Source: Aquimarina macrocephali JAMB N27
Lineage (GTDB): Bacteria; Bacteroidota; Bacteroidia; Flavobacteriales; Flavobacteriaceae
Reading direction: 5' to 3'
DNA length: 64,000 nt
NCBI RefSeq assembly: GCF_000520995.1
Contig: NZ_JACA01000047.1
Coordinates: 1 to 64,000, forward strand
The notes under the pieces were generated by a model. It saw only the letters and a program-made list of their open reading frames with translations. It searched no databases and was not told the origin of the DNA. The first letter of the stretch is position 1. Each line of letters starts with the position of its first letter. Both the position numbers and the translations under genes were made by a program. Shown in pieces: positions 26,358 through 52,970 of the stretch.

Positions 26358-27140
26358 TTAGAAATCCTTTTTCTTAGATTTTCTATAGATGTTGAATGTA
26401 GGTAAAAATACCCAAATAGAAAGTGCGATACAAGATAAAATTACTCCTAAATTAGTACCAAAAAATTTCTGAAAAACTGCACCGGTATACCCTAATAAAG
26501 CAGAAATATCAAGTTTTAATAATATCAAGATCCTAGATAAATCAATAGGGTTAAATAAAGTTACTCCTATTGAAAATTTATCTAATGGGTAGGATTCAAA
26601 CATGATTAATGACATTAAAAAAAGACCATCGTAAATCACCGCCATAAATAACCAAAGCAAAATAGCGTAGCTAAACCCTTTTATTTTGTTTTCATTATAG
26701 AGAGCAATATTAAATGCCAACGCCGTAAAAATTAATGTCAAAAATGTACCCGTAATGAGGAGTAAGGAAAATTCCCAAATCGCACTCGATTGAAAAAGGC
26801 CGTACATGGCAAACGGTAATCCTAATCCTATTACCAAACTCATAGATAATGAAAGCGCTACTCCTAAATATTGCCCAAGAAAAATAGACGATCTCTTAAT
26901 GGGTTGCGCCAAAAGTAATTCGGTAAACTCCTTAGAATTATAATAATACATAACTCCAAAAATAGTTCCGATAAGAGGAACAAGAATAATAATCACATTC
27001 ATCAAAGTAATTACAGCTTTTGACAAATCATTATTCAGGAATAATAATACAAATCCTAATGCCAAATAAAAAAGCAGGTATACATAACTCCATCGGCTAC
27101 GGATAAGGTCGTAAAAACTATATTTTAAAATCTTAAGCAT
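26358..27140 (-). CDS. nosY: ABC transporter permease of the nos cluster (NosY-like)
   Basis: A 260-residue ABC-2 type permease with six hydrophobic segments, beginning MLKILKYSFYDLIRSRW. It overlaps the upstream nosF by eight bases, which is typical of a coupled ATPase-permease pair. NosDFY supports assembly of the copper-sulfur CuZ centre of N2O reductase by energising sulfur or copper supply at the membrane. Confidence 0.88.
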   Translation of the reverse strand: MLKILKYSFYDLIRSRWSYVYLLFYLALGFVLLFLNNDLSKAVITLMNVIIILVPLIGTIFGVMYYYNSKEFTELLLAQPIKRSSIFLGQYLGVALSLSMSLVIGLGLPFAMYGLFQSSAIWEFSLLLITGTFLTLIFTALAFNIALYNENKIKGFSYAILLWLFMAVIYDGLFLMSLIMFESYPLDKFSIGVTLFNPIDLSRILILLKLDISALLGYTGAVFQKFFGTNLGVILSCIALSIWVFLPTFNIYRKSKKKDF

Positions 27141-27840
27141 TATTTTCTTTTAGCAAATTAGCAATCGCATGTTCAAAGTCGTTTTCTTTCGTTTTTTCTT
27201 TTAGGGTGCTTATATTTCCTTTGAAATATACCTTACCCTCGAGAAGAAAAACGATTTCATCGGCAATCTCTTCAACAAAACTCATAATATGAGAAGTGAT
27301 CAAAACTGTTTTTCCTTTTTCTTTTTCTATTTGTATTATTTTTTTAAGCTCTAACAAGGCAATAGGATCAAGCCCTGTAGTAGGTTCATCTAGAATAATT
27401 AATGGGCTATCAAACATTAATGTTAATACTAAATTTACTTTTTGTTTTGTTCCTCCAGATAGGTTACTTAGTTTTTTATCCAGAAAAGGGTTCAATTGAA
27501 AAGAGGATATCAGCGCAGTATCATCTCCAGATTTATTTCGTAAATCTTTGATCATTCTAATCAATTCTTGCACTGTAAGATTTGCAGGGAAATTAGCTAT
27601 TTGCGGTAAATAGTCTATTTGCTCACGATATTTCCAACTTTTCTTAATTGGAGTATTATCAATAAAAATATCACCTTTATTTGGGATAACCATCCCAAGA
27701 ATAGATTTGATCAATGTCGTTTTACCAGATCCATTTGGCCCTAGTATTGCAAATATCCCGCCTTCAGCAATACTTAGATCGACTCCTTTTAAAACCTGAT
27801 TCTTTCCAAAATCCTTATGTAAATTATCAATTTTAATCAT
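27133..27840 (-). CDS. nosF: ABC transporter ATP-binding protein of the nos cluster (NosF-like)
   Basis: A 235-residue ATPase with Walker A GPNGSGKTT (residues 34-42), signature LSGGTKQK, Walker B LIILDEPTTGLD and switch histidine in LITSH. It overlaps nosD by four bases upstream and nosY by eight downstream. It drives the NosDFY complex needed for CuZ maturation. Confidence 0.92.
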   Translation of the reverse strand: MIKIDNLHKDFGKNQVLKGVDLSIAEGGIFAILGPNGSGKTTLIKSILGMVIPNKGDIFIDNTPIKKSWKYREQIDYLPQIANFPANLTVQELIRMIKDLRNKSGDDTALISSFQLNPFLDKKLSNLSGGTKQKVNLVLTLMFDSPLIILDEPTTGLDPIALLELKKIIQIEKEKGKTVLITSHIMSFVEEIADEIVFLLEGKVYFKGNISTLKEKTKENDFEHAIANLLKENNA

Positions 27841-29075
27841 CCTTGTTTTTTCATTAACGGATACTTATCAAGTAAATCATCAGGGGTAAATACAGGCGAT
27901 ACTTTTTCAGAAAAATCAATCATATCAATAAACAAGCTCCTCATTAAGATAATCGTTTCTGGGGTCCTGTTTACGATATATGAAAATAATTTTACCGGCC
28001 TGTAAGGTACATCTCCAACACCATTTTTATCTAAATCATATCCTGTATACCCACTCCAATAATTCTTATCAAATTTGTTGTCATTAAGTTTACTGTTATA
28101 GGAGACATCAAATGAATTATACATAAAGTTATTGTTACTAAATATATTTGCATAACATGCACCACGTACTTTGATGGCCCAACCGTTTTTCACAAAACTG
28201 TTTTTAGTATACTTAATTCGATTAGAGCCTTCGATATTAATCCCTATTGTATTCTCTTTAAAAATGTTTCCTGTTATTTCTGCATCATTGATCTCTTTCA
28301 ACAAAAGACCATAGGATGCTGCTCCCCAGTTTTCTTTAAATGTATTGCTCAACATTTTTATCTTCTTGGAGAACATTACAGCGACACCTGCTCCATTATT
28401 CTCAAACGTATTATTCTCATACAGGTCATTGTTAGAAAACATAAAATGCAACCCATATCGTAAATTATTAGAACTTATATTATTTTTTATTCTACAATCA
28501 TTAGCAAACTCAAGGTAGATACCATCTCTTACATGTGTAATGATATTATTTTCTATGTCTATATTTTGAGAATACCATAGTTGTATACCGTTACCCGAAT
28601 TATATTCTTCTACTGCGTCACCTATAATCTTATTATGAAAAACTCTGCCATCTCTTGATTTCTCTAGATATATCCCAAAGAATAACTTTTCTAGCACTAA
28701 ATTTTGTATCAAAAAGTTTTTGCTTTTTACTACCCGTACAGCCGCATAATCCTCTGTATAACTAGTACCTACATTAATAATGAATAATCCATCTACCGTA
28801 ACATTATCAGAAATCACTTTTATAATTCCTCCTTTTAACTCCCCATCAATTATGGGGTAGTTTTCTCCCAATAATGTCAAAGGTTTATCAATCACAATAT
28901 TAAATTCATTATACTTTCCTTTTTTCACAAGTACTGTATCAAGTGCCGTGGCTATAACTATACCTTTTTTTATTGTTTTTATTTCACAGGAATTACAGAC
29001 CTTTATAGTCTTGCCGAGAAGTAACACTGGCAGAAGAAAGATTGCCAGAAATAGTATTTTCCTGATTTGAAACAT
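27837..29075 (-). CDS. nosD: Periplasmic copper/sulfur maturation protein NosD
   Basis: A 412-residue exported protein with a signal peptide (to about residue 21) and a long right-handed parallel beta-helix built from repeats such as NGIQLWYSQNIDIENNIITH and RYGLHFMFSNNDLYENN. The C-terminal segment NYWSGYTGYDLDKNGVGDVPYRP is a NosD hallmark. NosD hands material to NosZ during CuZ assembly together with NosF and NosY. nosL lies 137 bases upstream. Confidence 0.93.
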   Translation of the reverse strand: MFQIRKILFLAIFLLPVLLLGKTIKVCNSCEIKTIKKGIVIATALDTVLVKKGKYNEFNIVIDKPLTLLGENYPIIDGELKGGIIKVISDNVTVDGLFIINVGTSYTEDYAAVRVVKSKNFLIQNLVLEKLFFGIYLEKSRDGRVFHNKIIGDAVEEYNSGNGIQLWYSQNIDIENNIITHVRDGIYLEFANDCRIKNNISSNNLRYGLHFMFSNNDLYENNTFENNGAGVAVMFSKKIKMLSNTFKENWGAASYGLLLKEINDAEITGNIFKENTIGINIEGSNRIKYTKNSFVKNGWAIKVRGACYANIFSNNNFMYNSFDVSYNSKLNDNKFDKNYWSGYTGYDLDKNGVGDVPYRPVKLFSYIVNRTPETIILMRSLFIDMIDFSEKVSPVFTPDDLLDKYPLMKKQG

Positions 29076-29212
29076 TTATTTATTATTTGCTTTTTCTATA
29101 GGTTAAATCTTAATCACTACGGATCAACATAGAATTCGAATAGTTCCCGGTTTTCATCGGGATAAGTATTTTTATCTATTAGTTATACTGGATGGATAGA
29201 TATATTTCTATT

Positions 29213-29659
29213 TTAATGCTTTAGATGTTCTAAAAGTTCTTCCCAGGTAAATAAATCCCCTCCTTTTTCAGATTTCACTTTTTCTGCACTCGCCTTACTT
29301 TCAAATGAGGTTAAAAACGCTCCCATAGGGCTCGATATATTTTTACTTATCAAAAAAGTAGCTTGTGTTGCATCAATTAATTCTTCTGGAGAATCGTAAT
29401 GATTAGAAAGATAAAGTGAGATCTCTTCTTTGTCTATCTCTGCAACATAATTTATCATACATTCTACTGCATCGAACTTAAATACCTTACCTTTTTTTGT
29501 AACGATCTCGGCAGCATGAATTTTGTCGACAATGGTCATACTGCAATAATGACAATTGTCTTCTCCATAGGCAATTTTTTCCTGTTGAATGTTACATGAG
29601 GAACATGTTATTATTAGTAGTATTAAAAATGCTATTGTGTTAAAACTATTCCTTTCCAT
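29213..29659 (-). CDS. nosL: Copper-binding lipoprotein NosL
   Basis: A 148-residue lipoprotein with lipobox ITCSSC (Cys22). Immediately downstream are the Cu(I)-binding residues Cys36, Cys39 and Met41 in NCHYCSM. NosL is a copper chaperone that supplies NosZ through NosDFY. Its start lies only two bases after the stop of the preceding membrane-protein gene, so the two are translationally linked. Confidence 0.93.
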   Translation of the reverse strand: MERNSFNTIAFLILLIITCSSCNIQQEKIAYGEDNCHYCSMTIVDKIHAAEIVTKKGKVFKFDAVECMINYVAEIDKEEISLYLSNHYDSPEELIDATQATFLISKNISSPMGAFLTSFESKASAEKVKSEKGGDLFTWEELLEHLKH

Positions 29660-29661
29660 TT

Positions 29662-30261
29662 TTATTGATTTTTGAAGTTTTTTTCGCGTTTCCCTACAAA
29701 ATAAGAAATAAAGGTCAGAGCCATTCCTATTGCCAAAAAATATGCCCCTAGTTGAGGGTATGAGTGGGCTCTAAAATTTAAAATATCTTTAGTTCCAAAT
29801 AATGGAGGTTGAAACCCCATAACAGTCCCGTCTGGATTGGTAAATTTCATTATTGCTTTTGGGTCCAAATCATGCCCATAGTCATGCTCCCACAGATAAA
29901 AATCATAAATTCCTGCCAAGGCTAAAATAGCCATTACTATAAACCATCCCAAAAACCATTTATAGTTTGCTTTAAAGGCTAATATAATTCCTAAAAAGGC
30001 CATTACTATAATCACAATAGGAAAAATCCTGAATTCTGGAATCGATTCGGGAATGTATTTCATTCCTACATAATGATTCATCAAATTGATATTCTTAATA
30101 TCATGAGGATGCATGTCTGCGAAATCATTTATGTAGATATCCATTCCTAACGGAGTTGGATATTGAGGAGCTTCTAATGTAATATTCCAAAGAGGAAATA
30201 CGAACAGAAATAAAGGCAACAGTACTCCTACAAGCATTAATATTCTTGATTTCTTCTTCAT
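29662..30261 (-). CDS. Membrane protein directly downstream of nosZ (nosB position)
   Basis: A 199-residue protein with four hydrophobic segments (about 9-25, 82-99, 104-121, 170-187) and a large extracytoplasmic loop carrying histidine/methionine-rich HPHDIKNINLMNHYVGMKY. In clade II nos clusters a membrane protein called NosB occupies this exact place; homology is inferred from position and topology, not proven. The loop could bind copper. It is separated from nosZ by a stable hairpin. Confidence 0.7.
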   Translation of the reverse strand: MKKKSRILMLVGVLLPLFLFVFPLWNITLEAPQYPTPLGMDIYINDFADMHPHDIKNINLMNHYVGMKYIPESIPEFRIFPIVIIVMAFLGIILAFKANYKWFLGWFIVMAILALAGIYDFYLWEHDYGHDLDPKAIMKFTNPDGTVMGFQPPLFGTKDILNFRAHSYPQLGAYFLAIGMALTFISYFVGKREKNFKNQ

Positions 30262-30286
30262 GACTACAATTTTTTTAAGTTGATTT

Positions 30287-30319
30287 AAAAGCGAGAGGGG
30301 ATTTTATCCTCTCGCTTTT
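30287..30319 (-). terminator. Hairpin between nosZ and its accessory genes (attenuator or mRNA stabiliser)
   Basis: Perfect 12-base arms AAAAGCGAGAGG and CCTCTCGCTTTT. On the minus strand only four T follow, so it would be a leaky terminator. It could keep nosZ mRNA levels above those of the maturation genes. Confidence 0.6.
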
Positions 30320-30363
30320 TTGGAAATATAACTAATCTATCTCCTTCCTGGTAGAATCTGAAA

Positions 30364-32331
30364 TTAATCTTCTCCCAGAGACCAGGAAAGTTCTATATCA
30401 GATGATGCAGGTGATACTCTTACATATCCTTGCATCTCTTGATGTAATGCCGAGCAAAAATCAGTACAATAAAATGGCCAGACTCCTACTTGTTTAGGTT
30501 CCCACACAAAAGTTTCTGTTTGCCCAGGCATTATTAGTAGTTCAGAAGTATTGGCTCCGATCATACTCACTCCATGTGGTACATCATAATCTTGTTCTAA
30601 ATTTGTAACATGAAAATAGACCTTATCCCCTACTTTAACTCCTTCTATATTATCTGGTGTAAAATGGCTTCGGATCATAGTCATATATACATGTACTTCT
30701 TTTCCTTCGCGTTCTACTCTTACATTTTCATTATTTTTAATACTATACTTATGTTCATTTTCTTCTAATTTATAGATTTTCTTAGAATGGGGTTTTATGA
30801 GATCAGCTGGTATCCCAGCGGCATAATGTGGTTCTCCAATAGTTGGAAAATCTAATAGCAATTCCATTTTTTCACCTGTGATATCATACAACTGTGCCGA
30901 TTGGGTAACTTCTGGTCCGGTTGGCAGATAACGATCTTTAGTTATCTTGTTCATCGCCAGTACATATTTACCAAATGGTTTTCTAGAGTTTCCTCCCGGA
31001 ATCATCAAGTGGCCTACAGAATAATATGTAGGTTTTCTATCTATTACTTCCCAACTTCCTAGTTTCCATTTTACTACTTCAGAAGAAATAAAGAACGTGG
31101 TATATCCATTTCCTTTACCATCAAACTCGGTATGTAATGGTCCTAGTCCGGCTTGAGAAACAACACCTGCCAATGCATCTTCAAATTTGATAATCGGAAT
31201 TCCATAAGCATCCCCATCAAACTGTTTATTTTCGATAGCCTTAATCATTTTACTAAACGAGTGTACTGTAAGATCGGCAGAAAGTTTACCGTTCCCAACA
31301 ATATATTCTCCCGATGGGTCTACATCACAACCATGTGGTGATTTAGGTGTTGGTAAAAAGTATACTAAACCTGGGCATTCTGCAGGATCTAATACTTTTA
31401 CTTCTTTCTTCATTGTAGAAGTTGCCGTATGTGTTTTCTCATCATATACATTATGTGCATAATTAGCCGGCATTGTTTTAAACTTCCCTTGTTTGATATA
31501 TTCTTCTGCTTTTTTCCAATTGATTGCAGCGATGAAGTCTTTATCATTTTGAGATGCATTTACTTCTAATAAAGAATTTGCTTCTTCTGTATTGTATGTA
31601 GTAAAAAAGAACCAACCATGTGAGGCTCCTCTACCTGGGTGAGCTAAATCATAATTAAAACCTGGTAGTAAAATCTGAAAAGCCATTTCCATATTTCCAT
31701 GATCAGGATCTACACTAATAAAGGATACAGCTCCTTTAAATTTTCCTTTATATTCTTTGATAGCAATATCTTCTTGTGGTACAGGTACAGAAAAACGAGT
31801 TCCTGCTACTACATATTCTGTATTTTCTGTTACAAAAGATGAACTATGATTACCAGCACTATTAGGAACTTCAATTATTTCTGTAGTTTCAAAAGTACTT
31901 AGATCAATTCTTGCAATTCTTGGGGTATTGTTTCCGTTAATAAAAACCCAACGCCCATCAACTTCTCCATTGGTCTGTGATATATCTGGATGGTGAGAGT
32001 CATCCCAAGGTACAAAACCATAAGAGGTATTAAGCATTGGTTTTGTTTCTTCATTATATCCCCATGCTTTTTCTGCATCTTGAGAAAAAACAGGGATTAC
32101 TTTAAATAATCGTCCTGATGGAAGTCCATATACAGATAGTTGTCCACTAAACCCTCCTGAGACAAATGCATAAAATTCATCATGCTCTCCAGGAGCTACA
32201 TAGACTTTTTCTGCAGCATTAGATCCTAATGCTCCATCGGTTATTTTTTTATCTTTATTAATATCTGCACAGCCGGTTATTACCAAGCTAAGTACTGCTG
32301 TAATAAAGAGTATTTGAGATATACGTTTCAT
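30364..32331 (-). CDS. nosZ: Nitrous-oxide reductase, clade II (Sec-exported)
   Basis: Multicopper periplasmic enzyme reducing N2O to N2. The 655-residue protein has an N-terminal Sec-type lipoprotein-like signal ending LVITGC, not a twin-arginine signal, which places it in clade II. The seven-bladed propeller holds the CuZ histidines (segments such as HGCDVDPSGEY and GPLHTEFD). The C-terminal cupredoxin holds CuA with Cys622, Cys626, His630 and Met633 in CTDFCSALHQEM and the earlier histidine in VPHGVSM. The fasciclin lipoprotein gene lies 23 bases upstream. An FNR-like plus Rrf2-like operator module lies at the head of the operon. Confidence 0.97.
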   Translation of the reverse strand: MKRISQILFITAVLSLVITGCADINKDKKITDGALGSNAAEKVYVAPGEHDEFYAFVSGGFSGQLSVYGLPSGRLFKVIPVFSQDAEKAWGYNEETKPMLNTSYGFVPWDDSHHPDISQTNGEVDGRWVFINGNNTPRIARIDLSTFETTEIIEVPNSAGNHSSSFVTENTEYVVAGTRFSVPVPQEDIAIKEYKGKFKGAVSFISVDPDHGNMEMAFQILLPGFNYDLAHPGRGASHGWFFFTTYNTEEANSLLEVNASQNDKDFIAAINWKKAEEYIKQGKFKTMPANYAHNVYDEKTHTATSTMKKEVKVLDPAECPGLVYFLPTPKSPHGCDVDPSGEYIVGNGKLSADLTVHSFSKMIKAIENKQFDGDAYGIPIIKFEDALAGVVSQAGLGPLHTEFDGKGNGYTTFFISSEVVKWKLGSWEVIDRKPTYYSVGHLMIPGGNSRKPFGKYVLAMNKITKDRYLPTGPEVTQSAQLYDITGEKMELLLDFPTIGEPHYAAGIPADLIKPHSKKIYKLEENEHKYSIKNNENVRVEREGKEVHVYMTMIRSHFTPDNIEGVKVGDKVYFHVTNLEQDYDVPHGVSMIGANTSELLIMPGQTETFVWEPKQVGVWPFYCTDFCSALHQEMQGYVRVSPASSDIELSWSLGED

Positions 32332-32354
32332 TGGTTTATCTTTTTATTAGTTTA

Positions 32355-32930
32355 TTAATTTGATGGTGGTAATAATACCTTATCAATAACATGTACAATT
32401 CCGTTTCCGGCAGGAATACTTGCTAAAATTTTGGCTTCGCCAATAAAAACATCTTCGCCTTCTTTGGTTACTTTCACATTTACACCATTAGACTGGCCCA
32501 GTTTTTTAAATTTTTTCAGAAAATCTTTTGAGTAATTACCTGGTGTTACATGGTATTTTAGAATGTTTGCTAATGCGTCTTTATTTTCTGGTTTCAAAAG
32601 ATTCTCTACAGTTCCTTCGGGTAATGCATCAAACGCTTCATTAGTTGGAGCAAATACCATTAAAGGCCCTGCATTTACCAAGGAATTTTCTAAACCGGCA
32701 GCCTGAACAGCTGCCACCAATGTAGTATGATCTTTAGAACCAATTGCTATATTAAGTACATTAGGGGTCGCTTCATCATCTTGAATAAATGCTTGCCCTT
32801 GTTTTTCGGTGGTTTCGGTTACTGTTTTTTTTGGTGTTGAATTTGTTTCCTCTTTCTTAGTTTCTGTTTTACAACTTAGCAAGAAGGTAAAGCTCATTAG
32901 AATTAAAAAAAATGCTTTAGTTGTTTTCAT
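32355..32930 (-). CDS. Fasciclin-domain lipoprotein in the nos operon
   Basis: A 191-residue lipoprotein (lipobox Cys20) with a Lys/Glu/Thr-rich linker and one FAS1 domain (about 55-190, with LVAAVQAAGL, LMVFAPTNEAFDALP and GNGIVHVIDKVLL). FAS1 domains mediate adhesion or protein contacts. Its place 23 bases before nosZ suggests a scaffold or anchoring role for N2O respiration, which is inference only. Confidence 0.85.
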   Translation of the reverse strand: MKTTKAFFLILMSFTFLLSCKTETKKEETNSTPKKTVTETTEKQGQAFIQDDEATPNVLNIAIGSKDHTTLVAAVQAAGLENSLVNAGPLMVFAPTNEAFDALPEGTVENLLKPENKDALANILKYHVTPGNYSKDFLKKFKKLGQSNGVNVKVTKEGEDVFIGEAKILASIPAGNGIVHVIDKVLLPPSN

Positions 32931-32999
32931 AATATTTAGTTTAGTTTATTTTTTGTTGTGTCTATATTGATCTGCACAAAATCTATAAATCCTACTACA

Positions 33000-33503
33000 T
33001 CAAATACTCTGATTTTCAGGTGTTGTAGGGTTGTATCCAAAAACTTTATTTGGCAAAATGGTTCCATGAATATGTAATATGTATCCAATACAAGCAAAAT
33101 GGTGGATTGCATGACTATGAGCTTGGTTTAACCCTCCTCCTAGGGTTGTCGGAATCTCAACCATCCCCATCCCAAGATCATCTTTTATAATAATAGCAAT
33201 ACTGGGATCTAAATCAGAAATACATTCCAGATCAGAAATTATTTTTCTCAAATATCTCTGACCTTCTACTGGGTTTTGTTCTACAATAGTTCCCCTTTTT
33301 CTCTTGGTTAAGTCAATAATTCTAGAATCTATACCATTAACTATACATTTAAAAATATCTAGTATATGACGTAAATGCCCACCTATACTACTGTAATAAG
33401 GCGCTGCAGATGTACTGGAATAAATAGCAGGTGGTAATTCTGCAAATATTTCTTCTGCTTGTTTTAAATTTATTATGGTGGGTTCAACAATCTGCTTTAA
33501 CAT
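33000..33503 (-). CDS. DinB-like four-helix-bundle protein in the nos operon
   Basis: A 167-residue cytoplasmic protein. The histidine pattern (GGHLRHILD near residue 42 and HSHAIHHFACIGYILHIHG near 128-146) fits the DinB/YfiT metal-binding four-helix bundle. These proteins bind Ni, Zn or Fe, and some are thiol transferases. The function here is unknown. It sits between the cytochrome c gene and the fasciclin gene in a run of same-strand genes. Confidence 0.65.
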   Translation of the reverse strand: MLKQIVEPTIINLKQAEEIFAELPPAIYSSTSAAPYYSSIGGHLRHILDIFKCIVNGIDSRIIDLTKRKRGTIVEQNPVEGQRYLRKIISDLECISDLDPSIAIIIKDDLGMGMVEIPTTLGGGLNQAHSHAIHHFACIGYILHIHGTILPNKVFGYNPTTPENQSI

Positions 33504-33550
33504 TCTTTATCCTTAGACAGGTTACAATATTTCCAATAAAGCCTTTTGTA

Positions 33551-34063
33551 CTATCCCTTTTTCAAAGTTCTGAAGTATTCTAAAATGGCTCTAGCTTCTT
33601 CTTCTTTTAAACTTTGATTTGCCATTGGAGACCCATTATGTTCTTTTAGTAACTCTTGAGCCAGTGGATCTTCTTTAATCATTTTTTCAGGATCCAGAAT
33701 CATATTCATAATCCATTCTGGAGTTCGTCTTTCTAAGATACCAACGGGAGCTGGCCCGATAAACTTCTTATGGGTTTTATGACAAGCAGTACATTTTGTC
33801 TTAAAGAGTTCGGCTCCCTGAGCAGCCATTGTTTCGTCAATAGTGGCATCTAATACTAAATTTTTGATTGGCCCAACTCCTTTATTTGTGAGATCAACTT
33901 TTTTTGATGCAGGAGTGCCAGTAGAAACGGGTTTGGTTTCTTTTTTTTGAGTTGTTGTACTCTTTCCTATTTTAATTTGTTCTTCCTTTTTTTCTTCTTT
34001 TCCTCCGCAACTTATTAATAGAGTAACAGCGAATAAAATTATCAATTTGTCTAGTCTAATCAT
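33551..34063 (-). CDS. Membrane-anchored monoheme c-type cytochrome
   Basis: A 170-residue lipoprotein (lipobox LLISC, Cys19) with a Lys/Thr-rich tether and one c-type cytochrome domain. Heme attaches at Cys91-x-x-Cys94-His95 (CTACH), and the likely axial ligand is Met147 in GSPMANQ. The start is set at MIRLDKLIIL because it gives the lipoprotein signal; the frame is open 24 codons further upstream. As first gene of the nos operon, directly behind the operator module, it is a good candidate electron donor to NosZ. Confidence 0.85.
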   Translation of the reverse strand: MIRLDKLIILFAVTLLISCGGKEEKKEEQIKIGKSTTTQKKETKPVSTGTPASKKVDLTNKGVGPIKNLVLDATIDETMAAQGAELFKTKCTACHKTHKKFIGPAPVGILERRTPEWIMNMILDPEKMIKEDPLAQELLKEHNGSPMANQSLKEEEARAILEYFRTLKKG

Positions 34064-34132
34064 TTTAATAGATTTAAGATTATTGTTCAAAAATTCATTT
34101 CTCAAGAGAAATATTATTTTGATTATATCAGA

Positions 34133-34140
34133 CAAAATTA
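34133..34140 (-). promoter_or_regulatory. -7 box of the nos operon promoter
   Basis: On the minus strand this reads TAATTTTG, a match to TAnnTTTG, 70 bases upstream of the cytochrome c ATG. The centre of the type A palindrome lies 29.5 bases upstream of it, the spacing of a class II CRP/FNR activator. Confidence 0.55.
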
Positions 34141-34158: not shown

Positions 34159-34194
34159 AAATATGACAAAAGTCATATTTCGGACAAATTAGTC
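34159..34194. promoter_or_regulatory. Composite operator (type A + type B) upstream of the nos operon
   Basis: Type A at 34159-34180 has perfect arms AAATATGAC and GTCATATTT around AAAA, the spacing of FNR-family sites. Type B at 34182-34194 reads GGA-N8-TC with inner GAC and GTC. Their centres are 19 bases apart. The same arrangement precedes nirK, nadA and the copper-receptor group. The assignment to a CRP/FNR factor (A) and an Rrf2 factor (B) is inference. Confidence 0.65.
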
Positions 34195-34962: not shown

Positions 34963-35754
34963 TTAAGGAGTTACATTAATATCTTTTACACAACGAAAAC
35001 CCAAGTTCTTGACTGCATAATTTGCTTTCATACTTCCTCTAAAAGCATAGCGCATAAACGCAGCGTAATTCATTAAATCTGAAGCTCCAACAGCTGCACT
35101 GCCGCAAAATAAATTACTATCTTTATCTACATCTTTTCTAGATTCTCCCGATATCAGTACAGAATTAAAATCCAATGTCCATTCCCATACTAATCCATGT
35201 AAATCATATATGCCCCAATAATTTTTAAAAGTAGATCCAATACTGTTATTAAAAGATTTAGGAGTTTCGTACCATTCTAAAATATATTGATTATAGGTTT
35301 CTTTTTTTCTTGCGTCTATAGTCTTATCATCTGCCATTGCAGCGTATTCCCATTCATCAATAGTTGGTAATCTTTTTCCTTGACACTCACAATATTTTTT
35401 GGCGGCAAACCAAGAAATACCTGTTATAGGAGAATTAGGTTTCAATTGATCACTTAGAGTATTATCATCTTTCCAAAGTACCAAATAGTTTTTATCTGCA
35501 AATAACTGCTTTACATGGCTTCGTTTCCATTGTGGGTATTTCTTAACAAATGCTAAAAATTCACTATTTGATACAGGATAAACATCCATTAAAAAATCAT
35601 TGACTTTTACCGCTGTAGAATCAACTCCGTATAGAGGAATATAAACTCCTCCTTTAACAGTAACCATATTTTCTGTTTGTGCTATAACACTATTTAATGT
35701 ATATCCTATACATATAGCAAAAAAGAAAACTATTTTTAAAGGAGGAGTTAGCAT
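34963..35754 (-). CDS. nirV: NirV-like formylglycine-generating-enzyme-fold protein
   Basis: A 263-residue exported protein (signal peptide to about residue 25) with an FGE/SUMF1 fold: MVTVKGGVYIPL, the ITGISWFAAKKYCECQGKRLPTIDEWEYAA segment, WEWTLD and the closing GFRCVKD. NirV proteins of this type sit next to nirK in many denitrifiers, but their role is unsettled. It starts 13 bases after nirK on the same strand. It is not a sulfatase activator by context, as no sulfatase is nearby. Confidence 0.8.
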   Translation of the reverse strand: MLTPPLKIVFFFAICIGYTLNSVIAQTENMVTVKGGVYIPLYGVDSTAVKVNDFLMDVYPVSNSEFLAFVKKYPQWKRSHVKQLFADKNYLVLWKDDNTLSDQLKPNSPITGISWFAAKKYCECQGKRLPTIDEWEYAAMADDKTIDARKKETYNQYILEWYETPKSFNNSIGSTFKNYWGIYDLHGLVWEWTLDFNSVLISGESRKDVDKDSNLFCGSAAVGASDLMNYAAFMRYAFRGSMKANYAVKNLGFRCVKDINVTP

Positions 35755-44401: not shown

Positions 44402-44438
44402 TATGACAAAAGTCATAATTAAAGATAAAAAAGTCTTT
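44402..44438. promoter_or_regulatory. Composite operator (type A + type B) upstream of nadA
   Basis: Type A at 44402-44417: TATGAC-N4-GTCATA. Type B at 44421-44438: AAAGA-N8-TCTTT. Centres are 20 bases apart. The only gene starting nearby is nadA at 44364; the other neighbour ends here, so the module most likely controls nadA-nadB. Confidence 0.62.
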
Positions 44439-44473
44439 TTTATGTTATTTCACCATACGACTCATTTATACAT

Positions 44474-44526: not shown

Positions 44527-45375
44527 TTAAAACTCAATTTCAAAAAATAAACTGCTTTCGAGGTTATCCGTGGTAACGTCTTCTCCTTTTAGTACTTCTT
44601 GAGATTCGTTTAATAATTTCAAGTTAATTTTCCAATACCCTGTCATGGTTAGTGATAATTTTCCATTGTACATTTTTGATGCACTATCATAACTCAAATC
44701 TTCATTATTTGGCGAGCTATGATTACCCATACTAGGCATTCGAGGGTCTACTGTAATTTTATAGTTTTCTACTACAGGAAAAGTCATCATGTTTTCCATT
44801 TTAAAAAGCATCGCACTAAAATCATTTACTGCAACTTTTGGATCTACAGGTCCAGCCATAGTCAAAATATAACGAGTACCATCACTACCCATGAATGTGC
44901 TTACTTTTTGTTTACCATCTGCCGGTGATATTACATCTATGGTTTTCTTTGTTGTGAATTCTTCTCCATTAATTTTATAGGTAATGGTAAGATCCCAATA
45001 TTCATCGCCATTGCCTGGCATTTGAAAAACCAAGAATCCCTTAGAAACTGTCTTGTCTTCGGTAACAGTCAAGGTAGATTTTGGACAAGAGTGTTCCATT
45101 TGTGTCATATGCATCATGGGCATCCAAGAAATTTCGGATTGAGAAACATAGTTTTTTGTCGCCATATCTTTAATACGTATATACACTTCATTATATCCAA
45201 TGCTAAAATCGTTCTTCTTAGAATACAATTCTATAGAATGATTGTTAGCATCAAAAGAAGTTACCAGGTTAAATCCTTCCATAGGATTTACTATCATTTC
45301 GTCATCATCAGAACTACATGAAACAAAAATGGTTGAAAGTATGATTACTGTAAAAATTAATTTTATGGTTTTCAT
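44527..45375 (-). CDS. Met/His-rich lipoprotein of the copper-receptor operon
   Basis: A 282-residue lipoprotein (lipobox Cys20). Two Met/His clusters look like extracytoplasmic Cu(I) sites: SWMPMMHMTQMEHSCP (about residues 83-98) and DPRMPSMGNHSS (about 211-222). The beta-rich repeats around them resemble YtkA/FixH-like domains. It starts 24 bases after the OprC-like receptor and is likely its surface or periplasmic copper-capturing partner; this role is inferred from motif and context. Confidence 0.7.
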   Translation of the reverse strand: MKTIKLIFTVIILSTIFVSCSSDDDEMIVNPMEGFNLVTSFDANNHSIELYSKKNDFSIGYNEVYIRIKDMATKNYVSQSEISWMPMMHMTQMEHSCPKSTLTVTEDKTVSKGFLVFQMPGNGDEYWDLTITYKINGEEFTTKKTIDVISPADGKQKVSTFMGSDGTRYILTMAGPVDPKVAVNDFSAMLFKMENMMTFPVVENYKITVDPRMPSMGNHSSPNNEDLSYDSASKMYNGKLSLTMTGYWKINLKLLNESQEVLKGEDVTTDNLESSLFFEIEF

Positions 45376-45399
45376 TTGTTTATTTTTAATTATGTTTTT

Positions 45400-47466
45400 T
45401 TAATTGATTTTGTATGAAAATGTGATGAAGAAATTACGTCCCATTCGAGGAACATTTTTCCAATCTGTATACGTTGAATAGTATTCATCAAAAATATTTT
45501 CTACACCTGCCTTGGCATATACCACATCGTTATTCAGGTAAAAGGTTTTTCCCAGAGTTAGAGAAAAAATGATGTAGGCTGATGTTTTATCTTCGCCAAA
45601 TTCTGGATTAAAATTTATTTGATCTCCAGCACCTTTCATGGTAACTTCTCCTGAAAAACTCCTTTTATTATACTGAATCCCGGATCGATACGATATAGGA
45701 CTTATAAAAGGCAAATTGCGATTGGTATCATCTTTTCCCTGATGGTAGGATACCGAAGCAGACCATCCAAGTTCTGGTATGATTTTGTATTCTGTACTCA
45801 AAGACACATTAACCAAATCGGCATACTCTAGATTTTCATATATTTTTACTCCATCAGCACCAATTGTCATAGTACTAAGTGATTCATTTACCTCACCAAT
45901 AATGTAATTAGGCATTCGAAAAATATTTCCTTCCAGAGCAATTTTTAATTTGGATTTTTCTAACGAAATTTTAGCGTTACCCTCTATAGATTGTTCATTT
46001 TTTAAGTTAGGGTCACCAATATAATCGTGATTATCAAAACTGTTAAAAAGATAAAACCCATATCCTTCTGATACTGATGGTGCTCGTTCTCCATAAGACA
46101 GTCCAGCATTGATGTGAATAGGATCTAAATGTTTATGATATTGCAGCGAAGCACTTTTAAGAAAGCGTGTTTTGGATTCTTCCATATCTGGATAAAAGAT
46201 TCTAAGACTATTAAGTCCAAAATCATCAGCTATAGTATTGTTTTGCACAGCTAATCTCGCAGATAGTTTTAAAGAACTTTTTTTAAAGCTGATCTTATCT
46301 TCAGCATATAAACCTGTATTCCAAGTTCGTACATCGGGCCAAGTAAGCATAAACATAGGGTTCTCATTGGGATTATTGGGGTACATTGTCATTTCTGCAA
46401 GAGACTTATTATAAAACCCGTCCCATTTCATCAAAAAGTGTTGTTTTTTGGTTTTCAAATTCGCTTCAGAGAAAAACCCATACGTATCACTCCATCCCGG
46501 CATATCCATTCGAATAGGTACATCTGGTCTTTGAGAATCATCCATCACATGAGTAACTTTATTAAAGTACACTTTAGACTTCCAATCGCTAAATACACCT
46601 ATAGTATTTTGTTCAAAACCTATAGATGCAATAATTGCACGTGCCAAAGAAACATCCATGGGTAATGCAGGATACCCTACATCTCGTGCTTCATCATAAA
46701 TAGCAGTTGCTGTGAGTGCCTTGTTTTTATCAATCTTATATCCTCCGTTTACAGAGACATTATACTTTGTATATTGAGAAAAATTGATTTCTTCTCCATT
46801 TCCTGCAGTATAGTTTTCCGCTTTGCGATAAATGATATCTCCATCTACATAAAAATCAGAATTTGAATAATTGGCTTCTGCCCCCAGAACCACTAATTGG
46901 TTATTGGTTTCGAATCCATCTTCTAAACTTGCTTTGAATCCTGTTTCTCTAAAATTGCTTTTATCTAACTTCAGATCTATTGCGCCTCCTATACAGTTTC
47001 CATATTCCGACCCTTGTTGTCCCGATGCAACATGGGCTTTAGCAAGGTTGGACACATCTACATAAGAGGTAATAGGATCCATTTTATCTGTACACGCACC
47101 AAAGATTCGCATCCCATCAATAGTAACAGAAAGTCTTTCTGATGTCATATTATTTAACGCAGGTTCCCAAGCATAGGCTCCTCGTTTTATCATACCCACT
47201 TTTTGTGAAAGCTCCAGGTATTCATCTAACGATGATAATGGTTTAGGTTGTTTTTGATAATCCAATTCTTTTCTGGCAGATATCAAAATAACTTCTTCCA
47301 GATTGATTGGCATAATAGTATCTGGCTCTTTGTTTAGGATTTCTTCCTGGGCATTAACCCAACAGGGGGTAATTTGAAAAAGCAGGATATACCATAGCAT
47401 ATTTACCCTTTTAAACGGTGCCCTCAAAACCCTATACAAAGAGGTCACACCAATACTAGTTTTCAT
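45400..47466 (-). CDS. OprC/NosA-like TonB-dependent copper receptor
   Basis: A 688-residue outer-membrane receptor. The plug contains GMIKRGAYAWEPALNNMTSERLSV-type sequence and IDGMRIFGACTDKMDPITSYV, where Cys125 and Met129 form the CxxxM copper-binding motif described for OprC/NosA. The barrel ends FFITFSYKIN. NosA was named as an outer-membrane protein needed for copper supply to N2O reductase, which fits this window. The start could also be Met23 (47400), which gives a more compact signal peptide ending VNAQ. A repeat element separates it from the upstream small gene. Confidence 0.85.
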   Translation of the reverse strand: MKTSIGVTSLYRVLRAPFKRVNMLWYILLFQITPCWVNAQEEILNKEPDTIMPINLEEVILISARKELDYQKQPKPLSSLDEYLELSQKVGMIKRGAYAWEPALNNMTSERLSVTIDGMRIFGACTDKMDPITSYVDVSNLAKAHVASGQQGSEYGNCIGGAIDLKLDKSNFRETGFKASLEDGFETNNQLVVLGAEANYSNSDFYVDGDIIYRKAENYTAGNGEEINFSQYTKYNVSVNGGYKIDKNKALTATAIYDEARDVGYPALPMDVSLARAIIASIGFEQNTIGVFSDWKSKVYFNKVTHVMDDSQRPDVPIRMDMPGWSDTYGFFSEANLKTKKQHFLMKWDGFYNKSLAEMTMYPNNPNENPMFMLTWPDVRTWNTGLYAEDKISFKKSSLKLSARLAVQNNTIADDFGLNSLRIFYPDMEESKTRFLKSASLQYHKHLDPIHINAGLSYGERAPSVSEGYGFYLFNSFDNHDYIGDPNLKNEQSIEGNAKISLEKSKLKIALEGNIFRMPNYIIGEVNESLSTMTIGADGVKIYENLEYADLVNVSLSTEYKIIPELGWSASVSYHQGKDDTNRNLPFISPISYRSGIQYNKRSFSGEVTMKGAGDQINFNPEFGEDKTSAYIIFSLTLGKTFYLNNDVVYAKAGVENIFDEYYSTYTDWKNVPRMGRNFFITFSYKIN

Positions 47467-47556
47467 TAGAATATATTTTATAAATAATTCAACATATAAA
47501 TAAGTTTATGTACATGTATTTGAGGTATATCATACCTTCAAAACAAATACACTGAT

Positions 47557-47715
47557 AGAACTCATTTAAGCTTTTACTTTTTGCTGCAAATTTTTCTTAT
47601 TCACCCTAATTTTGACTTTTTCGTAACGTAGCTATAGCTATGCTCCTCAAAAAAGGATTCATTATGGTAAAAAATCTTAAATTTTCGTGTAAAACAAAAA
47701 ATTCAAATGAGTTCA
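47557..47715. repeat. Intergenic inverted-end repeat, copy 2
   Basis: About 159 bases, with ends AGAACTCATTT and AAATGAGTTC(A) as inverted repeats. It shares with copy 1 the CTGCAAATTT-like block, CACCCTAATTTTG, the centre AACGTAGC...GCTATGCT and ATGGTA. It starts eight bases after the stop of the small Cys-rich gene and sits inside the copper-receptor group. Confidence 0.75.
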
Positions 47716-47722
47716 TATTGAA

Positions 47723-48097
47723 TTATCCAAACTCCGGAGGTGGAGAAATATCTGTAATAAGTAATTTAGAAATTATTTCTTGTGTAGTTTTATAATTGTT
47801 CTCAACTGTATTTTCTGGTTCATTTTTTAAATCGAAATCAAGTAATAGTTGAAAAAAAACAATATGCTGAATCTCATTCTTAGATTTTTTGTCTTTGAAT
47901 GGATTATTTTCTGAGTCGGATTCTTTGGCTAATTGTTTTTTTAAATAGCATTTACCATCACACTTTAATCTAGGCCTATCTTTATTTATACAGAGGTTTT
48001 TTACGATGTAATCATAATTCATGATATACTCTCCTACTGGCCAAAGAGGCTTGATAAGCATCAGGAGAGCAACGAATAGAATTACCTTACTTTTCAT
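47723..48097 (-). CDS. Small Cys-rich protein heading the copper-receptor operon
   Basis: A 124-residue protein with one N-terminal hydrophobic segment and then Cys36, Cys46 and Cys50 (NLCINKD, KCDGKCYLKKQL). The CxxxC pair plus a nearby cysteine suggests metal or thiol chemistry outside the cytoplasm. Its promoter carries a type A palindrome 30.5 bases from a perfect -7 box. The function is unknown; copper handling is inferred from context. Confidence 0.7.
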   Translation of the reverse strand: MKSKVILFVALLMLIKPLWPVGEYIMNYDYIVKNLCINKDRPRLKCDGKCYLKKQLAKESDSENNPFKDKKSKNEIQHIVFFQLLLDFDLKNEPENTVENNYKTTQEIISKLLITDISPPPEFG

Positions 48098-48101
48098 GCG
48101 G

Positions 48102-48109
48102 CAAATATA
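48102..48109 (-). promoter_or_regulatory. -7 box of the copper-receptor operon
   Basis: Minus-strand TATATTTG, an exact TAnnTTTG match, five bases before the ATG at 48097, implying a nearly leaderless transcript. The type A site centre is 30.5 bases upstream. Confidence 0.5.
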
Positions 48110-48131: not shown

Positions 48132-48169
48132 TATGATAAAAGTCACAAAAAAGACAAAACGATCTTTTT
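48132..48169. promoter_or_regulatory. Composite operator between the copper-receptor operon and the second rrf2
   Basis: Type A at 48132-48147: TATGAT-N4-GTCACA, one arm imperfect. Type B at 48148-48169: AAAAAGA-N8-TCTTTTT. Centres are 19 bases apart. Type A is placed to activate the minus-strand copper group; type B overlaps the -33 region of the plus-strand rrf2 gene, suggesting autoregulation. Confidence 0.62.
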
Positions 48170-48198: not shown

Positions 48199-48648
48199 AT
48201 GCTATCTAACGCTTGTAAATATGCTATAAGAGCAATCCTTTATCTAGCAATACACTCTGATGAGACTCATAAAATAGGAGTAAAAAAAATTGCCGAAGAA
48301 TTAGAGACGCCTCAACCTTTTTTGGCCAAATTATTAAGGCAATTAACCTCTAATAAGTTGGTTTCCTCTACTAAAGGTCCTGGGGGTGGTTTTTTTCTGG
48401 ATAAAAAAAATAAAGAGAAATCAGTTTGGGATGTTATTTGTTGCATCGATGGTACTCATAAATTTGATAAATGTTTTTTAGGACTATCAAAATGTAGCGA
48501 TAAAAATCCATGTCCTGTACATTCTACCGTATCTCCATTTAAGAAAAAAATATTAAATGAATTTAGAGATAAAACGATTTCTAAACTTGTTGAAGAAATT
48601 GAAGTAGAAGGAACCGTAATTTCCTTAAAAGGATTTGATCTAAAATAA
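48199..48648 (+). CDS. Rrf2-family transcriptional regulator, second copy
   Basis: A 149-residue paralogue of the regulator at 37462. It shows the same start (MLSNACKYAIRAILYLAIH), a helix-turn-helix with TPQPFLAKLLRQL, a wing KGPGGGF and the cysteine triad Cys92, Cys99 and Cys105 (CFLGLSKC, PCPVH). It should bind an iron-sulfur cluster and sense nitric oxide or oxygen. A type B palindrome overlaps its own promoter. It is divergent from the copper-receptor operon and convergent with the 597-residue gene. Confidence 0.85.
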   Translation: MLSNACKYAIRAILYLAIHSDETHKIGVKKIAEELETPQPFLAKLLRQLTSNKLVSSTKGPGGGFFLDKKNKEKSVWDVICCIDGTHKFDKCFLGLSKCSDKNPCPVHSTVSPFKKKILNEFRDKTISKLVEEIEVEGTVISLKGFDLK

Positions 48649-48668: not shown

Positions 48669-50462
48669 TTACAAATCATCAATTTCTGAGTTTATTTGGT
48701 TTAAAGTCATTTTGCTATTATCCAAATCGTTTAAAATTTGAGATTTAGAATTTTCAAAAGCTATTTTTATACTTCCAAAAATGTTTTCATAATAAGAAAC
48801 TCCTTCTTTTAGGTTTTTTACAAATACTGACAAATATTTTTTCTGCTTATCATTTATAGAATGCTTTGTTTCTTCAAGCTTATCTTTTAAAAAATCAATA
48901 TAAATGTTTAGCTCTTTTATAAACATGTTAGGACGATCTGTTCTTACAACTTCATCAGATTCTCCATAAATATGGCTTGTTATTTCTTTTAAACTCATAA
49001 GCTTAGAGAAATAAGCCATATTTGGCCCAGGGCATATCGAAACTCCTTCTCCTTCAACTTTAGTATCTAAGTTATATTTCAGTAACGCAGAAGTTCCCAG
49101 ACCAACACAGGTACATGATTTTTCTGTGATTTGATCAAATTCTCTTTGATAATCTTCCTGAGAAAGACCTTTTTTATCCAGCTCCTTAATTTTTATATGC
49201 TGATATTGTCGTGATGCTGTACATATCCCTTTTTCGGTAAATTCTTTATTTAGAGCAACAAATTTTTTAGGACATGAGCTACCAGGCCTGTTTTTTTCTA
49301 ATAAAGTTAACTTTTCCTGATCTTTTGTATTTCCTTTTAGGCTATTAAATGGTATTCCCAAAGGAGAGATATCACTTAGGTATAAATCATCTTCTTTGGC
49401 TTTTACTAATTTATCTAATGTACTATTATCAACTGTTGTTGCTTCTGGTACCAAAAGAAACGGAGTTCCCCACCCTACTGAATCTACTTTGTAATGTTCT
49501 AATAAAAACTGATGTTCTTCTGCTGTACCCACCCCGCCCTGGGCAGTGATTTTAACAGGTAAAGGAGATTGTGGAACATGTCGGTTTTTACGAGACCATA
49601 CCTCTGCTATAATCTTATGTATTTCAGAAATCAATTCTTCTTTCTGATCTCTAAACTGAGCTAATATTGGCCCCATAAGATATCCATCTGTTGCAAATGC
49701 ATGACCCCCGCAATTAAGTCCGGATTCAATTCTATATTCTGAAACCCATAATCCTTTTTTGGCTAAAAATTTTCCTTGTATCAGGGCAGATCTATAATCA
49801 CTTACTTTTAAAACTATTTTCTTTTTAATTTCTCCGTTCTGGTTTGGATAAAAATCCTCAAACTCTTCCATATAACTATACAGCCTGGGGTTCATCCCGG
49901 CAGAAAGTATTACGGATGAAGATAATTCGCTATTAGCATATCCTCTAAGCGCTGCGTGAGCATCATTATATTTAGAAGATAGTTTCTCTTTTTTTTGATA
50001 ATTTTCTTTATCTACTTTGGTCATGATATTTACATCAATACTGCCCATCGATAAATTGGCTTCTATTAAATCCTTGATTCCTTTAAAATTGAAATCATTG
50101 GATGCTAATCCTTTAAATCGCTGCTTTAGTAGTGAAGTATCTGGTAAAATATTGAAGTATTGTTTCAATTCATTACTACATTCTGTTGTAATATTTTTAA
50201 GTTGATTAAACTTTTTTTCTGCCAGATCATTCATCAAATTAAGATAAGAAGTAATCCTCTTAGCTCTAAAATCTTCTATACTTTCTGTGATTTCATTATA
50301 TGGCATTTCGAATGTATCACAATACATCTTTCTTAGTTTTTCTAATAGAATATCATCAACCAATGAAATAACAGAATCTATTCCCAGATGAGAAACTTTT
50401 AATGGAGTATCAATAGTAAAGCCTATTCCCATTACAGGAATATGAAATGAATGTAGTTTCAT
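48669..50462 (-). CDS. Uncharacterised 597-residue cysteine-rich protein, possible Fe-S enzyme
   Basis: No function is recognised with certainty. The opening HIPVMGIGFTIDTPLKVSHLGIDSVISL and the central ITAQGGVGTAEEHQFLLEHY, VDSVGWGTPFLLVPEA segments look like a TIM-barrel of the nitronate-monooxygenase/enoyl-reductase type. Six conserved-looking cysteines (251 in GLNCGGHAF, 397 in GSSCPKKF, 414, 450, 452 in SCTCVGLG, 477 in ICPGPNM) suggest an iron-sulfur cluster. A type A palindrome lies upstream of a -7-like box, so it is probably induced without oxygen. The C-terminal 100 residues are helical and charged. Confidence 0.75.
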   Translation of the reverse strand: MKLHSFHIPVMGIGFTIDTPLKVSHLGIDSVISLVDDILLEKLRKMYCDTFEMPYNEITESIEDFRAKRITSYLNLMNDLAEKKFNQLKNITTECSNELKQYFNILPDTSLLKQRFKGLASNDFNFKGIKDLIEANLSMGSIDVNIMTKVDKENYQKKEKLSSKYNDAHAALRGYANSELSSSVILSAGMNPRLYSYMEEFEDFYPNQNGEIKKKIVLKVSDYRSALIQGKFLAKKGLWVSEYRIESGLNCGGHAFATDGYLMGPILAQFRDQKEELISEIHKIIAEVWSRKNRHVPQSPLPVKITAQGGVGTAEEHQFLLEHYKVDSVGWGTPFLLVPEATTVDNSTLDKLVKAKEDDLYLSDISPLGIPFNSLKGNTKDQEKLTLLEKNRPGSSCPKKFVALNKEFTEKGICTASRQYQHIKIKELDKKGLSQEDYQREFDQITEKSCTCVGLGTSALLKYNLDTKVEGEGVSICPGPNMAYFSKLMSLKEITSHIYGESDEVVRTDRPNMFIKELNIYIDFLKDKLEETKHSINDKQKKYLSVFVKNLKEGVSYYENIFGSIKIAFENSKSQILNDLDNSKMTLNQINSEIDDL

Positions 50463-50587: not shown

Positions 50588-50609
50588 AAATATGACAATT
50601 ATCATGTTT
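50588..50609. promoter_or_regulatory. Type A palindrome upstream of the 597-residue gene
   Basis: Arms AAATATGAC and ATCATGTTT around four bases, the same 22-base frame as at nirK and nos. No type B partner is visible. It lies between the nrdD stop and the start of the 597-residue gene, 126 bases before that start. Confidence 0.55.
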
Positions 50610-52950: not shown

Positions 52951-52970
52951 AAAAGACCTTTTTATCTTTT
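52951..52970. promoter_or_regulatory. Type B palindrome upstream of nrdG-nrdD
   Basis: AAAAGA-N8-TCTTTT, a perfect outer palindrome 13 bases before the nrdG ATG and next to a TATTTTTA box (52972-52979, minus strand). No type A site is present. A position downstream of the -7 box suggests repression. Confidence 0.6.

Follow-up and report, generated by a model that had tools for sequence, protein, structure and literature searches.

OprC of Pseudomonas aeruginosa and NosA of P. stutzeri are TonB-dependent barrels with a CxxxM motif in the plug and an HxM motif in the barrel wall, and excerpts of PMC8610252 give the copper ligands of OprC as C143, M147, H323 and M325. A tie to nitrous oxide (N2O) reduction has been claimed for NosA, although according to the same excerpts it was reported to matter in one strain of P. 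stutzeri and to have no effect in a second; whether such a receptor feeds the N2O reductase NosZ is in dispute. Copper genes can also be headed by short proteins of the CutF-like class, named after CutF of Rhodobacter capsulatus, which excerpts of PMC9973294 define by small size, a CxxxC motif, PP near the end, a signal peptide and a copper gene next to them; the survey described there found many in Bacteroidota, with TonB-type genes among the commonest neighbours. CruR, which heads the copper receptor operon CruR-bfrG(crtA)-bp2921 of Bordetella, needs its RAPP motif for expression and its CXXC motif for copper control, according to PMC9426467. This study concerns a stretch of 64,000 nucleotides (nt) from Aquimarina macrocephali JAMB N27 (assembly GCF_000520995.1, contig NZ_JACA01000047.1, positions 1 to 64,000; hereafter the window), in which three genes, together called the module, encode a small leader protein, an OprC-like receptor and a lipoprotein.

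We consider it likely that the module is a copper importer of flavobacterial N2O reducers, activated with denitrification and headed by a copper-sensing leader, a reading based on the sequence, the predicted fold, conservation, synteny, a common promoter type and RNA pairing beyond chance. An OprC/NosA-like copper-acquisition operon linked to N2O respiration had been proposed from the DNA letters (the original prediction), and this gained support at genome level from the promoter site, fold, co-occurrence and synteny. OprC, NosA and CutF-like leaders are already known, and what is added here is the module's leader together with its RNA; the searches made in openly licensed literature listed no paper recognised as describing the combined module next to nosZ. 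Some flavobacteria that destroy the greenhouse gas N2O appear to carry copper-import genes with the genes of NosZ, under a like promoter. A link relevant to the dispute is recorded here in genomes of many genera, and the question becomes directly testable because the genes of receptor, lipoprotein and presumed sensor accompany nosZ and have a promoter of the same type. The module is also relevant to the question of copper as a limit on the removal of N2O in waters poor in copper, and offers a specific example from Bacteroidota in which a nascent peptide may sense copper.

The receptor and its partner lipoprotein

Three open reading frames (ORFs) running in one direction on the minus strand were confirmed, namely, the leader (47723–48097, 124 residues), the receptor (45400–47466, 688 residues) and the lipoprotein (44527–45375, 282 residues). 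The plug CxxxM motif that the original prediction had placed at Cys125 and Met129 of the receptor lies at exactly these positions (codons at 47080–47094, minus strand) and aligns to the CxxxM of OprC. The HxM half of the OprC site, which had been missed, is also present in the barrel as His306-x-Met308 (46543–46551, minus strand). All four residues (C125, M129, H306 and M308) are kept in 44 of 44 aligned receptors, the window's own included, the most distant being about 21% identical; L038, with an in-frame stop, was excluded from this set, and near-duplicates and L014 were also removed from the alignment used for identity.

Six OprC sequences were the only relatives of the receptor at E ≤ 0.01 in a phmmer search of the PDB (best 3.2e-20), and the best NCBIfam model was TonB-copper (TIGR01778). 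Structure prediction, suggested earlier as a check on the copper site, gave an AlphaFold model (predicted local distance difference test (pLDDT) 83.6; predicted template modelling score (pTM) 0.82) with a fold nearest OprC: its 13 best structural matches were all OprC (Z 38.3–39.5, root-mean-square deviation 2.3–2.5 Å, 591–597 residues), at 21–23% identity in the structural alignment. OprC is therefore closest by PDB sequence search, NCBIfam and fold, and on these matches a siderophore or vitamin receptor, the grouping named in advance as contrary to the copper reading, was rejected. A CrtA-type receptor was also rejected, because CrtA receptors are without conserved Cys or Met (PMC12914433), whereas C125, M129 and M308 are invariant here. 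Unlike OprC and NosA as described, the window receptor is encoded between genes for a leader and for a lipoprotein of two domains, and the module often stands beside nosZ. A second OprC-like class (L013–L016, about 25% identity among the family matches) was observed with an ACPNRMD plug, and with CxxxM-HxM and an upstream leader in all four loci read; nosZ occurs in 39 of the 50 family genomes that have this class.

Two Met/His clusters had been proposed for the lipoprotein, and both were confirmed and found to be conserved (residues 86–95, 45091–45120; residues 211–219, PRMPSMGNH, 44719–44745; both minus strand). The lipobox cysteine, Cys20, is invariant in 38 of 38 aligned lipoproteins together with M88, M90, H95, M119, M213, M216, H219 and M244, and M93 is kept in 36. 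The structure model (pLDDT 91.0) consists of two beta-sandwich parts of the CrdA/YtkA type, the first of which matches the fold of CrdA from Helicobacter pylori (Z 13.0, 2.6 Å, 105 of 108 residues, 15% identity); the fold matches ranked below CrdA appeared to be generic Ig-like ones. In a profile search, Met/His cluster 2 aligned to a Met-rich stretch of CrdA (E 0.0055); in the excerpts of PMC9182242, the CrdA motif, of which MPGM is part, is proposed to bind Cu(I). YtkA (PF13115) was matched at E ≤ 0.01 by 35 of the 38 lipoproteins, the window member scoring 21.2 bits against a Pfam cut-off of 25.9. The window protein resembles CrdA/YtkA in the fold of its first domain and in a Met-rich loop with MPxM, and differs in having two domains, a lipid anchor, His within the Met clusters and an importer as partner.

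Promoter type and linkage to nosZ

A type A site at activator spacing to a perfect -7 box had been claimed for the leader promoter, and the pair was recovered and is conserved in relatives. The site TGACTTTTATCA (48134–48145, minus strand), a palindrome resembling those of CRP/FNR-type regulators, begins 36 bp before the box TATATTTG (48102–48109, minus strand), which itself begins 12 bp upstream of the leader ATG; this distance would suit an activator that binds near -41. Searched as TGAY-N4-RTCA at 34–36 bp before TAnnTTTG, the pair was found in 15 of 20 nos-linked module promoters, in none of 500 mononucleotide-shuffle rounds and at 2 of 174 other ORF starts of the same loci. It was present with zero mismatches at 35–36 bp in 21 of 23 leader promoters with the window gene order (seven from the genus; eight genomes common to this set and the 20 loci), and absent from four of four leader promoters of the distant receptor class. 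The cytochrome c-nosZ promoters carry the pair at 35 bp in 14 of 19 cases and the site alone in 17 (L142 was excluded, its cytochrome start being at the region end, and the sites of L127 and L141 were located where the BLAST match to the cytochrome begins); in the window, this operon has a type A site at 34164–34175. Judged by these patterns, the module and the cytochrome c-nosZ operon have one promoter type with equal geometry in many genera. In 11 of the 15 nos-linked module promoters with the pair, only 12–13 bp separate the start of the box from that of the leader, and the mRNA may therefore be nearly leaderless.

Within the window, type A sites were mildly enriched (9 found and 4.6 expected; 3 of 100 shuffles reached 9), and type B sites with at most two mismatches numbered 10 against 5.2 expected (5 of 100 shuffles reached 10). 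The exact form TATGAY-N4-RTCATA occurs 13 times in the 6.06 Mb genome and three times inside the window. Genome-wide, the longer form of type A showed no enrichment when one mismatch was tolerated (179, and 200 in the reversed control), and the site claim therefore rests on the module and nos promoters. Seven matches to CRP/FNR-type helix-turn-helix models were found in the genome, none of which was tied to the type A site. A type B palindrome, AAAAGAY-N6-RTCTTTT, stands without mismatch at 48149–48168 as a possible operator of an Rrf2 (NsrR-like) repressor, and the pattern is likewise exact upstream of nirK and nrdG. An Rrf2-family regulator is encoded divergently (48199–48648, plus strand), and Rrf2 relatives lie between the module and cytochrome c-nosZ in L126, L127, L130 and L133.

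Within the genus, the receptor (E ≤ 1e-20) occurs in 10 of 33 genomes, which are exactly the 10 with nosZ; a further member (G232) has neither. Among 249 family genomes, in which at most four receptor candidates were scored per genome, a receptor of at least 41% identity was found in 51, 42 of them with nosZ. At 45% or above, in raw genome counts, nosZ accompanied the receptor in 37 of 40 genomes, compared with 83 nosZ-positive genomes among the other 209 (odds ratio 18.7). Divided by enzyme, this class was present in 20 of 30 genomes with nosZ and nirK, 17 of 90 with nosZ only, 2 of 18 with nirK only and 1 of 111 with neither. NirK as the main partner was weakened as a candidate, since in G011 the receptor accompanies nosZ with no nirK match. 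In these comparisons the module is tied to NosZ more than to NirK, though genomes with both carry the receptor most often. Regarding position, 25 of the 42 nosZ-positive genomes with a receptor of at least 41% identity have it within 14 kb of nosZ, always on the same strand, and the remaining 17 have it far off on the same contig (2) or on another contig (15). In 20 regions picked for a nearby nosZ and searched for homologues of the window genes, the module stood before cytochrome c-nosZ in nine (with an Rrf2 gene between in four), after nosY in nine, one of which has an additional gene, and at a greater distance in two.

The leader protein and RNA pairing downstream of it

The first gene had been described as a small Cys-rich protein heading the group. 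Its place at the head stands; 'Cys-rich' is a loose term for three cysteines in 124 residues, and a regulatory leader of the CutF-like class is the better reading. Its N-terminus is hydrophobic, as judged by eye, and its C-terminus reads ...SPPPEFG. The codons from C36 to C50 (47948–47992, minus strand) spell C-x9-C-x-G-x-C, which includes a CxxxC (C46-x3-C50), and those of P119–P121 (47735–47743, minus strand) are followed by three codons and the stop. C36, C46, G48, C50, L52, P120 and P121 are the invariant columns among 30 leaders, and the middle of the protein, unlike the Cys motif and the C-terminal PP, is poorly conserved. In 42 of 45 loci a homologue of the leader is encoded ahead of the receptor or lipoprotein gene, and the Cys motif and PP 2–4 residues from the C-terminus are present in 42 of 42 homologues; in the remaining three loci (L009–L011) the leader was seen once wider regions were taken (L155; L143, L133).

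Among the best 80 of at least 585 relatives, found in named genomes including Arenibacter, Zobellia, Aequorivita, Flavobacterium and Chryseobacterium, PP was present in the last 12 residues of all 80; these leaders had been selected by the Cys-motif pattern, so only their PP counts as independent, and at least two contigs are common to the sets of 42 and 80. A PP end was found in 15 of 277 ORFs of at least 150 residues (window and 20 regions) as background. By BLAST, the gene after the leader in the best 80 was a receptor in 33, a lipoprotein in 16 and unclassified in 31.

These features agree with the published definition of the CutF-like class (PMC9973294), which sets a length under 150 residues with PP in the last 15, a CxxxC and a same-strand gene within 1000 nt downstream, here the receptor gene at 256 nt. 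Because these features fit, the leader probably lies within this known class, despite the want of a Pfam model match. The window leader matched no Pfam family, and DUF2946, the Pfam family of CutF and CruR, was rejected after no match at E ≤ 10 was obtained among 30 leaders, in a search whose HMMER filters discard most weak matches. Like CutF, the window leader stands first in a putative copper operon with a predicted RNA stem upstream of the next gene; unlike CutF, it heads a probable importer and not an oxidase, and has a stem arm overlapping its stop codon. The CruR operon is alike in joining a copper-sensing leader, a copper receptor and one more gene, and differs in that CruR has RAPP and CXXC motifs and is Rho-dependent. 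A second leader homologue occurs on another contig of the same genome (L147:1483-1869), ends in IDHPPEYLFS and heads a different TonB-dependent receptor, with no CxxxM in the 385 residues read.

The gap between leader and receptor (47467–47722, minus strand) measures 256 nt, and 98–362 nt among close relatives within the genus; the variation between the window, L004 and L006 apparently comes from inserted stretches. Pairing was evaluated by duplex energies between the stretch made up of the final 12 nt of the leader ORF and the 12 nt after it (47711–47734 in the window, minus strand) and the last 45 nt before the receptor, where the predicted 3' arm lies approximately at 47481–47497 (minus strand; L001 duplex). 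The sample comprised 33 loci with gaps above 60 nt and a next ORF of at least 600 residues, 14 of 47 gap regions having been dropped as near-duplicates. The mean energy was -9.50 kcal/mol, compared with -7.43 for dinucleotide shuffles (0 of 300; z -6.0) and -7.61 for arms swapped among loci (0 of 5000; z -4.7). Four control placements gave z -0.3, -1.6, -2.4 and -0.2 against shuffles and -0.5, -1.6, -3.1 and -0.6 against other loci. The RNA around the leader stop pairs with the RNA before the receptor start beyond chance, and a ribosome paused at PP would cover the 5' arm of the stem.

Proposed mechanism, alternatives and genomic setting

We infer transport, the order of copper transfer, the identities of the regulators, and pausing and its direction as follows. 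A CRP/FNR-type activator would switch on the module during nitrogen-oxide respiration from the promoter type of the nosZ operon, and an Rrf2 repressor would probably also control it. The OprC-like receptor would take up ionic copper via CxxxM-HxM, with TonB driving the copper into the periplasm, where the two-domain lipoprotein would receive it en route to copper enzymes that include NosZ and NirK. The leader would act as a nascent CutF-like sensor, in which copper on the Cys motif alters the length of the ribosome pause at the C-terminal PP, and pause length would decide the opening of the stem between the leader stop region and the receptor start region; by analogy with CruR, copper should reduce receptor output. 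As far as the genomes indicate, the importer is probably switched on with denitrification and tuned by copper through the leader. The full two-key form, in which a denitrification activator on a nearly leaderless promoter is combined with a nascent-chain copper sensor that opens the stem by a PP pause, is possible and is offered tentatively; if it is true, the N2O sink would govern the supply of copper to itself, separately from the general homeostasis of the metal.

Several observations weigh against the proposed reading. The receptor scores 126.3 bits, below the curated cut-off of 472.45 for TIGR01778, and is termed OprC-like, not a family member by that model, for this reason. The site-box pair is missing from 5 of 20 module promoters, and the family-wide co-occurrence counts ignore kinship. 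A receptor of at least 45% identity is missing in 83 of 120 nosZ-positive family genomes, and 41 of the 120 are without a relative at E ≤ 1e-20 among the candidates scored; NosZ in general therefore does not require the module. Excerpts of PMC8610252 cite a later report in P. stutzeri that a nosA knockout was without effect on NosZ, and state that OprC is also present in non-denitrifiers. As for the stem, the third control (the first 45 nt of the receptor) also deviates, the second is slightly off, and single loci reach p ≤ 0.05 in only 7 of 33 cases.

The occurrence of OprC in non-denitrifiers would suit a general copper receptor that serves respiratory oxidases or other copper enzymes and merely lies near nos genes in some genomes, as would a Bizionia receptor with the OprC motif listed near CcoG, a P-type ATPase and NosL (excerpts of PMC11213822), the three genomes of 40 in the 45% class that have no nosZ, the 41–44% class that is unlinked to nosZ (5 of 11), and the position away from nosZ in 17 of 42 assemblies. 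We regard this as quite unlikely in view of the way the receptor follows nosZ without exception across the 33 genus genomes, of which 23 are without the receptor though presumably all have oxidases, and of the same-strand adjacency and common promoter geometry. Import of another substrate, such as a siderophore, haem, a vitamin or zinc, is suggested by weak matches to haem-receptor models (TIGR01785, E 3.4e-19) and by ZnuD as the next fold match after OprC (Z 37.0); it is very improbable, since 44 of 44 receptors keep every copper ligand of OprC (four residues), OprC is the best match by sequence and fold, the partner lipoprotein is of copper type and the module is linked to nos. Somewhat unlikely, and the likeliest of the alternatives, is that the small protein does its work in the periplasm, binding copper or acting as a chaperone, and is not a regulatory leader; its PP end would then be structural. 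The hydrophobic N-terminus and the Cys motif would fit this, and according to PMC10987492 direct proof of translation arrest was lacking for both CutF and CruR. It is opposed by the poorly conserved middle beside an invariant Cys motif and C-terminal PP, by the first place in the module and the pairing of the RNA at the stop with the receptor start region, and by published genetics in which CutF depends on both motifs (PMC9973294, excerpts) and CruR on RAPP and CXXC (PMC9426467, excerpts).

The module lies in a denitrification region for which NCBIfam names NirK, NosZ, NosD, RIC/YtfE, NrdD, NrdG and two Rrf2 regulators; NosZ is of the clade II, Sec-dependent type. The order nosZ-nosL-nosD-nosF-nosY following a cytochrome c gene (26358–34135, minus strand) corresponds to the nosZ-L-D-F-Y order known from flavobacterial Kordia (PMC7477175, excerpts). 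Type A and type B sites precede nadA (44404–44415 and 44420–44439), and type B precedes nrdG (52951–52970); genes of NAD synthesis and anaerobic DNA-precursor supply may therefore share the regulon. Names other than those given by NCBIfam, namely NosL, NosF, NosY, SCO, fasciclin, qNor, NadA, NadB and SUMF1-like, are our presumptive ones, assigned from sequence and not from a family match above its cut-off. An orphan gene adjoining the module (48669–50462), preceded by a type A site (50593–50604), encodes a 597-residue protein without a Pfam match, and in L140 a 67% relative of it occupies the place between the nosY and leader genes. A SUMF1-like protein with weak SenA/EgtB model matches is encoded between nirK and SCO (34963–35754), and is found beside nirK also in L138 and L144.

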